From NCBI RefSeq assembly GCF_035984545.1, contig NZ_JAXCHP010000001.1, forward strand, positions 2,790,001-2,854,000: a DNA stretch of 64,000 bases, given 5' to 3'. Origin of the DNA: Cryobacterium sp. GrIS_2_6. Lineage in GTDB: Bacteria; Actinomycetota; Actinomycetes; Actinomycetales; Microbacteriaceae. A program made the translations under genes and the position numbers. Each line of letters starts with the position of its first letter. Position 1 is the first letter of the stretch. Positions 30,883-63,221 of this stretch are shown in pieces. Under the pieces are notes generated by a model, which made no database searches, had not been told where the DNA came from, and saw only the letters and a list, made by a program, of their open reading frames with translations.

Positions 30883-30943
30883 CGCGAAAGCGGGTGAATC
30901 GTCGTTATGGCGCGCTCTAACCGACGATTCACCCGCTTTCGCG
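30883..30943. repeat. perfect 22-bp inverted repeat, hairpin element
   Basis: Arms of 22 nt at 30883-30904 and 30922-30943 are exact reverse complements (outer end CGCGAAAGCGGG, inner end GAATCGTCG), around a 17-nt loop containing TTATGGCGC. It lies in the divergent gap upstream of the rpoB promoter and before the methyltransferase-like gene. No T-run follows, so it is not a standard terminator. Its left part resembles 39807-39840. Confidence 0.7.
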
Positions 30944-40304: not shown

Positions 40305-40798
40305 TGGCGGACCTCACCCGCGTGCGGCGCTGGGCCGAAGCGCTCATCGACCTGCACCTCGACGCCGGCTGGACCTTCGCGTTCGACAACGCCAAGAAAC
40401 GCGCCGGGCTGTGCAACTTCACGGCGAAACGCATCACCGTCTCGCGTTACCTCGCCTCCGGGTACGAGGACGACGAGGTGCACCAGATCCTGCTGCACGA
40501 GGTCGGTCACGCGCTCGCCGGCCCGCGCGCCGGCCACGGCCCGAAGTGGAAGTCCATCGCCCGGGACCTGGGCTACGACGGCAAACGCACGCACGACGGC
40601 GAGATCGCCAACGAGCTCGCCCCGTGGGTGGGCGTCTGCCCGGCCGGGCACATCCACTATCGCTACCGGAGGCCGACGCACGCCCTCGCCTGCGGGCTGT
40701 GCGGGCGCGGCTTCAACAGTGACCACCTCGTCACCTGGACGAGCCGGGAGATCACAGCGGCTGCTCGGCGGCGCGCCGCGGCGTCGGCCGGCCTGTAG
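40304..40798 (+). CDS. SprT-like zinc metalloprotease domain protein
   Basis: 164 residues. LLHEVGHALAGPRAGHGPKW near residue 62 contains HExxH plus the downstream His, as in SprT/Spartan-like domains. A C-terminal zinc ribbon is suggested by CPAGHIHYRYRRPTHALACG and CGRGF. Eukaryotic relatives cleave DNA-protein crosslinks; bacterial roles are little known. The ATG overlaps the stop of the decayed dehydrogenase as TGATG. Confidence 0.8.
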   Translation: MADLTRVRRWAEALIDLHLDAGWTFAFDNAKKRAGLCNFTAKRITVSRYLASGYEDDEVHQILLHEVGHALAGPRAGHGPKWKSIARDLGYDGKRTHDGEIANELAPWVGVCPAGHIHYRYRRPTHALACGLCGRGFNSDHLVTWTSREITAAARRRAAASAGL

Positions 40799-40933
40799 GC
40801 CGGACAGGGAGGCCGGCCGACGCCGCGGCGCGCCGTGGCGGCTGATCGGGCCGGTGCTCGCCGGAGCGACGCCGGTGCCGACGCTGACGCTCCCGGCCGA
40901 CGGCATCCGCTGGCTTACGCGGCCGCCGGAATG

Positions 40934-52288: not shown

Positions 52289-53002
52289 ATGGACGAGACC
52301 CGAAACGGCGCAGGAGACCCGGTGGAACCGGTCGCCCTGCCGATCGATCCCGGCGCAGTGCTCTGGTCGGCGTCCGAAGCCGACCGGGTCGGGCGCCCGC
52401 TGCTCCTGATCCTTCACGGCTACGGCTCCCACGAGGGTGACCTGTTCTCGCTCGCGCCGCACCTGCCGCTCAAGCCGGTCCTCGCGGCGCTGCGGGCGCC
52501 ACTTCCGGTCGGCGACGGCTGGGCCTGGTTCCCGGTCGGCATGCCCGGCGGCCTGGTCAACCCGAGCGCCCCGAACGCATCCGCTATCGAGGCGGCAGCG
52601 GACGGCGTGCTCGCCTGGCTCGACGCGCTCGTCGTGCCGCCGGCATCCGTCGGGCTGCTCGGCTTCTCCCAGGGCGGCGCGATGGCGCTGCAGCTTCTGC
52701 GCCAGGCGCCCGACCGATTCGCATTCGCGGTGCAGCTCTCGGGTTTCGTCGCCGCGGCGCCGCAGCCCGGCGACGCCGACCTCGCCGAGCGACCCGTTCC
52801 GGTGTTCTGGGGCCGAGGCACGGCCGACCCGGTGATCCAGGCGGATGCCGTCGGCCGCACCCAGGACTGGCTGCCCGGCCACTCGGTGCTCACCGAGCGC
52901 ATCTACGAGGGCATGGGCCACTCGATCTCGCAGGGCGAACTCTCCGACATCGTCGGATTCCTACGCACGCAGTACGCTGACGCGCCCGCGGACGTAGCCT
53001 GA
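52289..53002 (+). CDS. alpha/beta-hydrolase esterase (carboxylesterase/phospholipase type)
   Basis: 237 residues. LLLILHGYGSHEGDLFSLAP provides the oxyanion-hole HGYG near residue 42, the nucleophile is Ser in VGLLGFSQGGAMALQLL near residue 129, an acidic residue is in GRGTADPVIQ near 178, and the His is in YEGMGHSISQGELSDIV near 212. All three catalytic residues are visible. It likely hydrolyses short-chain esters or lysophospholipids. The 89-bp palindromic element at 53012 follows directly. Confidence 0.88.
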   Translation: MDETRNGAGDPVEPVALPIDPGAVLWSASEADRVGRPLLLILHGYGSHEGDLFSLAPHLPLKPVLAALRAPLPVGDGWAWFPVGMPGGLVNPSAPNASAIEAAADGVLAWLDALVVPPASVGLLGFSQGGAMALQLLRQAPDRFAFAVQLSGFVAAAPQPGDADLAERPVPVFWGRGTADPVIQADAVGRTQDWLPGHSVLTERIYEGMGHSISQGELSDIVGFLRTQYADAPADVA

Positions 53003-53011
53003 CCCACTCGC

Positions 53012-53100
53012 CTAACCAATTCGACGGAGTTTTTGCCCGGAAAGCGCTAAAAACACGCTCGTACGTCCTAGAAAATCAAAAAGTCCGTCGAATTGGTTAG
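53012..53100. repeat. palindromic repeat element, copy E1
   Basis: An 89-bp element whose ends are perfect 17-nt inverted repeats (CTAACCAATTCGACGGA at 53012-53028 and its complement at 53084-53100). Pairing extends about 7 more bases with one mismatch through TTTTTG/CAAAAA. It fills the gap between two convergent genes. A second element with the same arms is at 62691-62779. Confidence 0.8.
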
Positions 53101-53117
53101 GGCACAGCGCGTGAGGG

Positions 53118-53558
53118 TTAGCGCTTCTTCGCGGCGGCTTTCTCGTTCTGGGCGGCAAACCGGGCGGCGTGCGCGGCCTTGCGTGCGCGCTCGGCGTCGC
53201 GGTCCTTGACGCGGATCTGCTCCTCACGCACCTCGAACTGGGTAGCGCGCTCGGTGACGAGCCACGCCGGCGGCTGCTGCAGCAACGCGAGGATCTCGGC
53301 GCTCGTGAGCGGCTCGGTGACCTTGCCGCGCGCGAGCCCGGAGATCGAGACGCCGAGTTTCGCGGCGACGACCTGCTTGGGGTGCGGGCCATTGGCGCGC
53401 AGCAGGGCGAGCCACTCCGGCGGGTTCGTGTCGAGTTCGGTGAGCTCGGTGCGCGAGATCAGGGTGTTCTGGAACTCCTCGGGGGCTGCCTCGAGCAGAA
53501 TCCCGAGTTTCTGGGCCGCCGTTGCGGGCTTCATGGTCTGGGTCTTCTTCTCGCTCAT
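53118..53558 (-). CDS. DUF5997 family protein
   Basis: 146 residues. The conserved part is ATAAQKLGILLEAAPEEFQN near residue 12, NPPEWLALLRANGPHPKQVV near 44, KLGVSISGLARGKVTEPLTS near 65, and LLQQPPAWLVTE near 90. The ending is a basic, Ala-rich helix. The family is limited to actinobacteria and its role is unknown; the GVSISGLARG segment looks like a short DNA-binding helix pair but this is a guess. It is divergent from the LysR-like gene, a recurring pairing in related genomes as far as I recall. Confidence 0.8.
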   Translation of the reverse strand: MSEKKTQTMKPATAAQKLGILLEAAPEEFQNTLISRTELTELDTNPPEWLALLRANGPHPKQVVAAKLGVSISGLARGKVTEPLTSAEILALLQQPPAWLVTERATQFEVREEQIRVKDRDAERARKAAHAARFAAQNEKAAAKKR

Positions 53559-60704: not shown

Positions 60705-61973
60705 ATGACCTCGATGTACAGCCATGCGCACGTGCCGCGCTGGGCCGCCGACGTGCTGGTCAGCCTCGCCGTTCTGGGAAGCGCGTTCGTGCCGGCCGGC
60801 CAGTACGCCAGAGTCGCGTCGAGCCCCACCGGCGTGCTGATCGCCCTCGCAGCGGTCATCGTGCTGCTGCCGCGCCGCCGCTGGCCGCTGCCGGCACTCG
60901 CGGCGTGCGTCGCCCTGTTCGTGCTCGCCGGCGCCCTCGGCGTGCTCAATCCGGCGTTCTCCCTCGCGACGGCGATCGCGGTCTGGAACGTCGCCATCCG
61001 CACCGACCGGCGCACGACGCTCATCGCCACGGCGATCGCCGCGGCCACGCTCGTCGGCACGAGCCTCGCCGTCACAACGGCCGAACTGCTCGACGCCCGC
61101 GTGGTGCAGTATGCGGCGGTCATCGCCTTCGCCGGTGCTGCGGGGGACGCGATGCGGTCGCGCCGCGCATACATCATGGCGATCACCGAACGCGCCAGGA
61201 ACGCGGAGGAGACCCGCGAGTCCGAGGCGCTGCGCCGGGTCGCCGAGGACCGCCTGCGCATCGCCCGCGAGCTGCACGACGCCGTCGCCCACCAGATGGC
61301 CGTGATCAACCTGCACGCCGGGGTCGCCGCCCAGGCCCTCCCCGACCGCCCGGCCGATGCGCAGGACTCGCTCACGACGATCCGCCAGGCCGCGCAGGCG
61401 GTGCTGCGCGAGATCGGCACCCTGCTCGCCGTGCTCAGGGACGACTCTGCCGGCCGCCCCCGCCCCCCGGCCGCCGAGATCGGCCTCGGCCGCGTCGACG
61501 CGCTCCTGGCCGACTTCGCCCGCGACGGCCTCGCCGTGACGGTGAGTGCGCGCGGCGCGGGCACCCGGCTGTCGGCCCCCGTCGACACCATCGCCTACCG
61601 GATCGTGCAGGAGGCGCTCACCAATGCGCACAAGCACGGCGCTGGCCACACCGCAGAGCTCCGCATCAGCTACGGCAGCGGCAGCGTCGACATCGAGGTC
61701 GAGAATCCGGTCGCGTTCCACGTGCTCCACCCCGCAGCGGATGCCCCGGCCGGCCACGGCCTCGTCGGCGTCGCCGAACGCGCGGGCACCATCGGCGGCA
61801 CGGTCGAGTTCGGCGTGCGTCCCCCGGACACCTTCCGCCTCGCCGTGAGCCTGCCGATATCGAGCGCCGGGGCGGATCCCTCCGCCGACATCCCGAACAC
61901 CGGGCCGCCGGCCCCTGCTCGCATCTCGGCCCCGACCTCGGTTCCGGACCCTGCAGCAGGAGCGACCTCGTGA
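60705..61973 (+). CDS. sensor histidine kinase (NarL-type, HisKA_3)
   Basis: 422 residues with about five membrane segments in the first 150. The dimerisation box is RLRIARELHDAVAHQMAVIN (His near residue 192) and the ATPase domain has AYRIVQEALTNAHKHG near 298 and GHGLVGVAERAGTIGG near 350. The sensor is thus membrane-embedded with no large external domain, as in kinases paired with bacitracin/antibiotic-type ABC exporters. The stop overlaps the regulator start as GTGA. The C-terminal 35 residues are a Pro/Ala/Ser tail. Confidence 0.92.
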   Translation: MTSMYSHAHVPRWAADVLVSLAVLGSAFVPAGQYARVASSPTGVLIALAAVIVLLPRRRWPLPALAACVALFVLAGALGVLNPAFSLATAIAVWNVAIRTDRRTTLIATAIAAATLVGTSLAVTTAELLDARVVQYAAVIAFAGAAGDAMRSRRAYIMAITERARNAEETRESEALRRVAEDRLRIARELHDAVAHQMAVINLHAGVAAQALPDRPADAQDSLTTIRQAAQAVLREIGTLLAVLRDDSAGRPRPPAAEIGLGRVDALLADFARDGLAVTVSARGAGTRLSAPVDTIAYRIVQEALTNAHKHGAGHTAELRISYGSGSVDIEVENPVAFHVLHPAADAPAGHGLVGVAERAGTIGGTVEFGVRPPDTFRLAVSLPISSAGADPSADIPNTGPPAPARISAPTSVPDPAAGATS

Positions 61974-62644
61974 TCAGGGTCCTGATCGCGGACGACCAGA
62001 CCCTGATCCGCACGGCCGTGCGCGAACTGGTCAGGCACGAGCCCGACCTCGAGGTCGTCGGCGAAGCCGCTGACGGGGCCGAAGCGCTCGCACAGTCCCG
62101 GCTTCTGCTGCCCGATGTCGTGCTGATGGACATCCGCATGCCAGTACTCGACGGCATCGAAGCGACCCGTGCGATCTGCGCGGATCCGGGGCTCTCGACC
62201 GTGCGCATCTTGATCCTGACGACCTTCGAAGAGGACGAATACGTCGTGCAGGCCCTTCGGGCAGGGGCCGGCGGCTTCGTCGGCAAGGGCACGGAGGCCG
62301 CCGACCTGATGCGGGCGATCCGCACGATCCACCAGGGCGACGCGCTGCTCTCCCCCACGGCGACGCAGAGCCTGATCCGCCGCTACGTGCTGCCGGCCGG
62401 GCCCGGGCGCGCAGCCGTGGTGCCGCCGAGCCTCGCGCACCTGACCGATCGGGAGCGGGAGGTCCTCACGCTCGTCGCGCGCGGGCAGTCGAACGAGGAG
62501 ATCGCGGCCCGCCTGTTCATCTCGCCGCTGACCGCGAAGACCCACATCAACCGGACCATGGCCAAGCTCTACGCCCACGACCGCGCGCAGCTCGTCGTCA
62601 TCGCTTACGAGAGCGGACTCCTCGTGCCGGGCACCGGCAGCTGA
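61970..62644 (+). CDS. NarL/FixJ-family response regulator
   Basis: 224 residues from GTG 61970, which has AGGAG 7 nt upstream; the long frame further upstream is spurious. The receiver has RVLIADDQTLIRTAVRELVR, the Asp of VLMDIRMPVLDGIEATRAIC near 54, ILILTTF and the Lys of GAGGFVGKGTEAADLMRAIR near 104. The C-terminal LuxR-type HTH is LTDREREVLTLVARGQSNEE followed by IAARLFISPLTAKTHINRTM. It probably controls the MacB-like ABC operon. Confidence 0.93.
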   Translation: MIRVLIADDQTLIRTAVRELVRHEPDLEVVGEAADGAEALAQSRLLLPDVVLMDIRMPVLDGIEATRAICADPGLSTVRILILTTFEEDEYVVQALRAGAGGFVGKGTEAADLMRAIRTIHQGDALLSPTATQSLIRRYVLPAGPGRAAVVPPSLAHLTDREREVLTLVARGQSNEEIAARLFISPLTAKTHINRTMAKLYAHDRAQLVVIAYESGLLVPGTGS

Positions 62645-62690: not shown

Positions 62691-62779
62691 GAACCAATTC
62701 GACGGAGATTTTCGGTTCTGAACCGGTTGATGAATACCGCCCACGTCTCAGAAATCCAAATACTCCGTCGAATTGGTTC
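62691..62779. repeat. palindromic repeat element, copy E2
   Basis: Ends are perfect 17-nt inverted repeats (GAACCAATTCGACGGAG at 62691-62707, complement at 62763-62779) enclosing a diverged middle that still shares ACGTC..AGAAA with copy E1. The right end abuts the truncated channel gene. 89 bp, the same length as E1. Confidence 0.8.
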
Positions 62780-63221
62780 CGCCATTGTTCGGGCATCGGT
62801 TCGGGACCTGCTCGTGCTCGTGCTGCCGGTGCTGCGTTCGTTGCGCCTGCTCCGCCTCGTGACCGGCCTCTCCGCCTTCCCTCGCTCGCCGGGGACAGCG
62901 ATGCGGTCCCGCGTCGGCATCTACGTCACGCCCGCGACCGTCCTTCTCGTGTTCCTGGCCTCCCTTTCAGTGCTCGACGCCGAGCGGCGCGCTCCCGGCG
63001 CGAACATCGCCTCGTTCGGCAACGCGCTCTGGTGGACCTTCGTCACGATCGCGACGGTCGGCTACGGCGACTTCACCCCCGTGACGATCGAAGGCCGGCT
63101 GGTCACGGTCGCCATCATGCTCGGCGGGATCGCCCTCATCGGGGCCGTCACGGCGACCGTTGCTTCGTGGGTCGTCGACCGCGTCGCCGATCTCACCCGC
63201 GACCAGGGCGCCGACAAGTGA
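62727..63221 (+). CDS. potassium channel, N-terminally truncated next to the E2 repeat
   Basis: 164 residues as read, with about 145 of channel homology. The S4-like segment VRDLLVLVLPVLRSLRLLRL is followed by the S5 helix, a pore loop with FVTIATVGYGDFTPV (TVGYGD selectivity filter) and the S6 helix GGIALIGAVTATVASWVVDR. The first three membrane helices and the cytoplasmic N-terminus usual for six-segment channels are missing. The first 20 residues are read from the E2 element; start ATGs are at 62727 and 62730 inside it. It is either a decayed gene or a novel short channel; tetramer assembly might remain possible. Confidence 0.65.
   Translation: MMNTAHVSEIQILRRIGSAIVRASVRDLLVLVLPVLRSLRLLRLVTGLSAFPRSPGTAMRSRVGIYVTPATVLLVFLASLSVLDAERRAPGANIASFGNALWWTFVTIATVGYGDFTPVTIEGRLVTVAIMLGGIALIGAVTATVASWVVDRVADLTRDQGADK

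Follow-up and report, generated by a model that had tools for sequence, protein, structure and literature searches.

The window, by which we mean the whole 64,000-nucleotide stretch of Cryobacterium sp. GrIS_2_6 analysed here, contains two palindromic elements with common arms, E1 and E2 (Table 1). E1 (53012–53100) lies between two convergent genes, as a sequence-only reading of the same DNA had described it. Unlike E1, E2 (62691–62779) is flanked by tandem (+,+) genes.

Table 1. Features of the two palindromic elements and their neighbours (window positions).
Feature	Coordinates	Strand	Basis or remark
E1 left arm	53011..53035	.	CCTAACC + AATTCGACGGAG + TTTTTG; inverted-repeat search, family consensus
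E1 centre	53036..53076	.	41 bp; family-wide, sequence free and A/T runs phased at 10 bp
E1 right arm	53077..53101	.	left arm inverted
E2 left arm	62691..62713	.	
E2 centre	62714..62756	.	2 bp above the usual length
E2 right arm	62757..62779	.	
Gene left of E1	52289..53002	+	phospholipase/carboxylesterase (PF02230)
Gene right of E1	53118..53558	-	DUF5997 (PF19460), convergent
Gene left of E2	61970..62644	+	LuxR-type response regulator (PF00072, PF00196)
Gene right of E2	62814..63221	+	ion channel (PF07885)

With up to two mismatches, the arm word occurs four times in the window against 0.02 expected from shuffled sequences, which bears out the view that E1 and E2 are real inverted repeats with common arms. 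The arms of E1, previously put at 17 nt, do form a perfect inverted repeat, but its length is 18 nt (53011–53028/53084–53101); those of E2 are 17 nt (62691–62707/62763–62779). The length from one arm word to the other is 85 bp in E1 and 87 bp in E2, which makes E2 an off-length copy. The equal length of 89 bp reported earlier holds only by a count that added two flanking pairs to E1 but one to E2. In the family frame, from AATTCGACGGA to TCCGTCGAATT, the spans are 77 bp and 79 bp. Folded as single-stranded DNA, both elements are far more stable than their shuffles (z −7.48 for E1 and −7.50 for E2). The left arms taken alone (22 nt as DNA) give 0 kcal/mol in E1 and −2.1 kcal/mol (4 pairs) in E2, with z-scores of 0.88 and −0.95, and neither forms a small-hairpin unit of its own. 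Two other palindromes were seen in the window. The one at 30883–30943 has 22-nt arms starting CGCGAAAGCGGGTGAATCGTC, which recur in samples of the same genome (L332 4847, L334 17786) and thus represent a further repeat family; the one at 40769–40835 has 26-nt arms starting CGGCGCGCCGCGGCGTCGGCC.

The genome of E1 and E2 (G000) has about 40 copies in all, these two included. Over its 4.34 Mb the arm word has 79 matches at up to two mismatches, and the reversed control has none. When arms were paired at 70–104 bp in the fetched loci, 36 distinct uninterrupted elements were recovered, of which 33 are 85 or 86 bp long (85 bp in 23 and 86 bp in ten copies, with 84, 87 (E2) and 90 bp once each). Four more arm pairs lie about 1596 bp apart, each enclosing an IS, and three arm matches (in L041, L044 and L045) have no partner nearby. 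Across the genus, which is cold-loving, the exact pattern has 747 matches in 22 of 57 Cryobacterium genomes, with up to 134 per genome and none for the reversed control; the other 35 genomes have no exact match. All of the 80 matching stretches listed, among at least 120, belong to Cryobacterium. In samples of the family (199 genomes, 85 genera) and of the order (396 genomes, 109 genera), searched like the genus with exact 10-base arms that diverged arms would escape, the exact pattern was found only in the GrIS_2_6 genome; the other Cryobacterium genomes in these samples (three and two, respectively) gave no match. The proposal of a REP- or MITE-like family is thus supported: copies number in the dozens within the genome and in the hundreds across the genus, and E1 and E2 are not the isolated pair that would have spoken against it. 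The search that the same reading proposed among related Microbacteriaceae gave no match outside Cryobacterium in the family sample, and the family appears confined to Cryobacterium among the genomes sampled here. A single arm-like word in a viral contig had no second arm within 12 kb at up to two mismatches; we set it down to chance and dropped a phage origin. Among the publications found by our literature search, as far as their available sections go, we recognised none that reports this palindrome family; in the accessible part of a Cryobacterium genome paper (PMC7381226) both uses of 'palindromic' concern CRISPR.

We extracted 177 elements (35 from the own genome and 142 from others), which came to 175 after two alternative pairings of the same sites were accounted for; identical sequences were counted once, and orthologous copies of related species were all kept. 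Two nearly invariant inverted arms of about 21 bp bracket a centre of near-fixed length, and outside the own genome the two ends of an element can often be distinguished. The arms have the consensus C(G/T)AAC(C/G)AATTCGACGGAGATTTTG and an information content of 1.47–2.00 bits at positions −2 to 18 except for position 0 (0.79 bits). The span is 77 in 149 of the 175 elements, 78 in 21 and different in five. Because the pattern used to fetch the non-own loci allowed only spans of about 73–79 in the family frame, the own-genome count is the less biased evidence on length.

The centre (41 bp, positions 19–59) is free in sequence. Its A/T content peaks at positions 24, 34, 44 and 54 and its G/C content at 19–21, 28–30 and 37–41, the A/T runs recurring every 10.0 bp. 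The phase-locked 10-bp power is 1.264 in non-own copies (n=126; 200 shuffles gave a mean of 0.002 and a maximum of 0.012) and 0.917 in own copies (n=22; shuffle maximum 0.060), with values of 0.0002–0.0025 in the flanks. The runs may be of A or of T: position 34 has an A-run in 40 and a T-run in 61 of 127 copies, and position 44 in 64 and 35 of 127. Despite this interchange, each of the two runs has a preferred strand in oriented copies. In a calculation with wedge parameters, the predicted end-to-end ratio is 0.926 for 127 non-own copies (0.967 when centres are shuffled) and 0.923 for 22 own copies (0.964), a predicted curvature above that of the controls, yet modest. In 93 of 138 non-own elements the two arms differ at position 0, one having C and the other G, and this position is paired at a frequency of 0.26 against 0.47 expected; own-genome copies do not show such an asymmetry of the ends (11 of 32). 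The 84 non-own copies that could be oriented by position 0 have polar centres.

A structured RNA was among the explanations first offered for the conserved arms. A transcribed hairpin, whether a two-way terminator or a stabiliser of mRNA 3' ends, would agree with the strong predicted hairpins, with the location of copies at gene 3' ends, with the pairing of stem positions 13 and 16 above column expectation (z 3.2 and 2.1) and with the presence of other palindromes at the E1 and L013 sites of relatives. The centre, however, shows no extended pairing: its two halves pair at a frequency of 0.34, compared with 0.37 expected from column composition (n=149), and the deficit is strongest at positions 20/58 (z −4.3). 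A terminator scan found nothing at E1 or E2, where a GC stem with a T-run tail is absent, and the earlier remark that a T-run inside the stem does not make a normal terminator is upheld. The window has no Rfam match at the gathering cut-off, and at the E1 site at least five relatives (L217, L224, L227, L229 and L230) have less than 15 bp or nothing between the genes. Copies are not clearly biased in orientation with respect to transcription (non-own tandem copies: 15 against 25, and 27 symmetric; own copies: 1, 1 and 7). Neither the 10.0-bp phase nor the interchange of A and T nor the fixed length has an obvious reason at the level of RNA, and we hold an RNA element to be improbable. Conserved arms, a near-fixed length and phased, interchangeable A/T runs fit a protein on bent duplex DNA better than an RNA. 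The evidence points to an element at the level of DNA. Selection on the stem, as originally suggested, is thus part of the picture, in that the arms are kept, but length and helical phase are kept as well.

Comparison of orthologous sites anchored on their flanks yielded 55 pairs with an element in both members and 41 comparisons without a recognised element. We scored the 49 pairs with an equal span of 77, leaving out two that differ in length and four that are equal at another length. The mean identity of the arms is 0.980 (1.00 in 34 pairs), biased upwards by the recognition of elements through their arms (up to two mismatches per 11-base word), while the centres have 0.615 and the flanks 87.2%; random centres have 0.38, and the pairs are not independent, some sites being present in several species. 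In pairs such as L093/L111 and L191/L114 the arms are identical (1.00) and the centres near the random level (~0.38). Two further indications were tried and rejected. The A/T class is kept in 29 of 117 ortholog substitutions at A/T-run positions and in 63 of 136 at G/C positions, which gives the phasing no support. Compensating indels do not demonstrate selection on length, since unrelated pairs gain equally from gaps (311 of 400, versus 17 of 49 orthologs); the pair L089/L108 alone is suggestive of them.

Between loci of the own genome, copies are alike in their centres (best non-self identity 0.72, versus 0.556 for permuted columns; n=22), and this sharing of centre modules indicates dispersal by copying. 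When 14 own loci were compared with three close relatives (G016, G008 and G002), the element was present in 12 cases and missing in 16, one of these absences being judged on the left flank alone; L001, L005 and L022 were left out, as were single relatives at L007, L012, L016 and L017. The centre halves of the L002 copies of G000 and G008 have apparently been exchanged, and such half-swaps imply that conversion between copies could also keep the arms alike. At L010 the G016 copy has one eroded arm, and the L013 gap is occupied by a different palindrome in all three relatives. The E2 site has no element in any of the three, and its ion-channel gene is without about 75 N-terminal codons that they possess: the gain of E2 coincides with a 5' truncation of the adjoining gene. 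In both apparent gains of the own genome (E2 and the L013 site) DNA was replaced; no clean insertion and no target duplication was seen. E1 is carried at its site by G008 and G002 too. G016, which has a deletion there, has therefore most likely lost E1, and we ruled it out as an empty site. G030, G040 and G028 carry an element with an unrelated centre at this site, G009 a remnant, and further species other palindromes or none. Many relatives (L208–L219) have other GC-rich palindromes in the E1 gap, among them, in nine relatives, a type with the word GAATTGCCCC.

These comparisons also bear on a plain family of decaying MITEs, unconstrained at present, whose arms would be alike through recent spread, conversion or the method of finding them. 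The relatedness of copies within the own genome, the fast turnover and half-swaps among close relatives and the recognition of elements by their arms are what such a family would give. The ortholog pairs with identical arms and centres at the random level do not fit it, nor do the preserved length and the phasing kept in divergent copies. We rate this explanation slightly below the RNA element, as quite improbable.

The elements have a marked gene context. Among gaps of 90 bp or longer in the 8-kb loci from other genomes, an element is present in 39 of the 67 convergent, 61 of the 212 tandem and 10 of the 106 divergent ones, figures which come from a simple codon-usage gene caller and from loci chosen for the element, so that only the gap types can be compared with one another. 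Elements in convergent gaps lie at a median of 37/35 bp from the stops and those in tandem gaps at 40.5 bp, with a 10–90% range of −2 to 197. Eight gene calls enclose an element; three of them (L047, L054 and L189, all with span 77) were dropped as short and low-scoring. The remaining five copies are in frame within two protein genes of several species: L006 1505, L088 6627 and L194 7295 in a gene that, judged by eye, we take to be methyltransferase-like, and L029 1505 and L086 3235 in xylulokinase genes (identified by homologue search for L029 and by eye for L086). All five have a span of 78, compared with 16 of the 168 others (the dropped three included), and the one base above the usual 77 keeps the reading frame. 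Among 13 aligned xylulokinases, taken from the 120 homologues listed, the insert is intact, partly deleted, decayed or absent, and in some homologues the arms are decayed or gone.

The preference for convergent gaps would be expected if the element were a host architectural site that offers its arms at the 3' ends of genes as fixed sites for a nucleoid or topology protein (BIME-2 or gyrase-like), its mobility being historical, although avoidance of promoters would yield an equal bias. Arms that stay intact at many diverged ortholog sites speak in the same direction, subject to the arm-recognition bias. So do two element-free stretches of contig C1, of 967 kb (0.37–1.33 Mb) and 622 kb (2.85–3.47 Mb): with 40 elements placed at random, a largest gap of that size arises in 0.12% and such a second gap in 0.1% of placements. 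The sampled skew of the genome placed neither the replication origin nor the terminus. In E. coli, gyrase sites have two flanking regions of about 47 bp with AT/GC phasing, and they occur in BIME-2 more often than expected (PMC6379681, sections available). Their motif is a core between two periodic regions, whereas the Cryobacterium elements have a periodic middle between conserved arms. A site maintained for the host also sits poorly with the 16 of 28 site comparisons and the 35 of 57 genus genomes in which the element or its exact pattern is missing. We consider an architectural site unlikely.

The IS found between own-genome arm pairs is 1508 bp long, encodes an rve transposase (PF00665) and is present in five full copies; its NCBIfam IS3 score of 149.9 bits is under the cut-off of 160. 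Four of the five lie inside an element centre, after position 55 (54 once), with 3-bp duplications of TTC, GAA, AAA and TTC as read from the flanks. The fifth is 5 bp outside an element's arm word and has the same orientation with respect to the nearest arm. Of two copies read at contig ends in G016, one is likewise at position 55, and the other has no arm within 81 bp. Relatives of this IS adjoin other hairpins in G042 (L265, L266) and AACTGTT words in G042 and G017 (L274, L278), while the copy in G024 clearly adjoins neither; judging from these sequences, the IS group may target palindromes generally. We rejected the IS as parent of the family, since inside the centre it is bounded by ends of its own and by 3-bp duplications, and since its insertions are in four distinct elements. 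None of the own-genome arm pairs encloses an enzyme having the same ends as the element. A RAYT system was also discarded, PF01797 (RAYT-type, Y1 transposase) being found in 0 of 57 Cryobacterium genomes at E 0.001 by a search whose control was positive in 5 of 14 known genomes.

A second family of similar build was found in G039, a genome without a match to the first. Its palindromes, GCGAACCGTGAG...CTCACGGTTCGC (L279–L298; also L299–L317), number nine in the 400 kb sampled and all have a span of 59, with up to three arm mismatches and spans of 30–100 allowed. The exact pattern of this family occurs in 19 of 57 genomes, and 27 of 30 copies have a span of 55 in a shorter frame. Over positions 11–45, some of them on the arm side, the A/T power at 10.5–11 bp reaches 1.6, whereas no shuffle exceeds 0.04. 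A third arm type, TCAGGAGAT, was tried as an exact pattern and rejected, with two copies in 1 of 57 genomes. Possible members of a third family, with arms of the TCAGGAGAT kind, were noticed at L369 and L370 (G052) and at L123, L138 and L175.

As far as the available sections of the cited papers describe them, REPINs (REP doublets; Pseudomonas fluorescens SBW25) consist of two inverted invariant 16-bp words around a diverse spacer of preferred length, are extragenic, reach tens to hundreds of copies and persist long (PMC3116915, PMC8049555), and the free spacer is accounted for by its length and hairpin capacity (PMC3116915). The Cryobacterium elements share the inverted invariant words, the diverse spacer of preferred length, the extragenic location, the range of copy numbers and the long persistence. 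Unlike REPINs, they are without a RAYT-type gene (0 of 57 genomes), their spacer is unpaired (0.34 versus 0.37) and their arms are not small REP hairpins; the 10-bp A/T phasing goes unmentioned in the same sections of PMC3116915 and PMC8049555. MITEs, among them ERIC, RUP and NEMIS, are non-coding elements of 70–300 bp with terminal inverted repeats of 15–30 bp (PMC3733652, PMC10969869, sections available). The Cryobacterium elements are likewise short, bounded by terminal inverted repeats and non-coding, apart from the five in-frame copies within genes. The interiors of MITEs are conserved between copies, whereas those of the Cryobacterium elements vary freely; the own genome has no autonomous relative whose ends match, and neither of the two gains showed a target duplication. 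GTAG/CGTC REPs are described in the accessible part of PMC3733652, which also names RPE repeats, as high-copy palindromes located mainly behind coding regions, with units of 20–40 bp, stems of 5–13 bp and a terminal unpaired tag. The Cryobacterium elements share the high copy number and the usual place behind genes, and their arms contain CGTC, but the left arms form no small hairpin with an unpaired GTAG/CGTC end. Some copies of the Rickettsia palindromic elements, like some in Cryobacterium, lie in frame inside genes; the Cryobacterium copies are mostly intergenic and differ in sequence and host. ISs that target REPs include ISPsy8, ISPpu9 and others (PMC1525189, sections available). The Cryobacterium IS resembles them in its repeated insertion into a repeated palindrome; unlike ISPsy8 and ISPpu9, it is IS3-type, 1508 bp long and actinobacterial, and some of its relatives are at other palindromes in other Cryobacterium. 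Another IS that targets REPs is IS1397.

A REPIN-like mobile element agrees with the dispersal and polarity of the copies and with their presence at orthologous sites, while the lack of a Y1 transposase and of pairing in the spacer places it outside the REPIN family as defined. Our preferred reading, to which we assign a probability of about one half, is that E1 and E2 represent a REPIN-like mobile element which is non-autonomous, acts as double-stranded DNA and has its arms joined by a putative protein. This protein would bind both arms, and bending or wrapping of the intervening DNA would let them meet across about seven helical turns, counted end to end. Their meeting would help the element to propagate and may also benefit the host where genes end; both the mobilising enzyme and the host benefit are what we infer. 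A more tentative extension of this reading is a RAYT-less class of REPIN-like elements, in which the centre, free in sequence, fixed in length and A/T-phased, would be purely a shape code and would wrap on a dedicated putative protein that holds both arms, at least the AATTCGACGGAG, GAACCGTGAG and perhaps TCAGGAGAT arms would be read by variants of that protein, and the IS would land on the wrapped state.

The family offers hundreds of natural variants of a spacer that is unpaired and yet keeps its helical phase, and the choice between a single-strand hairpin and a bent duplex becomes a question that can be tested directly. It points to a putative mobilising or architectural protein in a genus in which no RAYT-type gene was detected, and also to a targeted IS.
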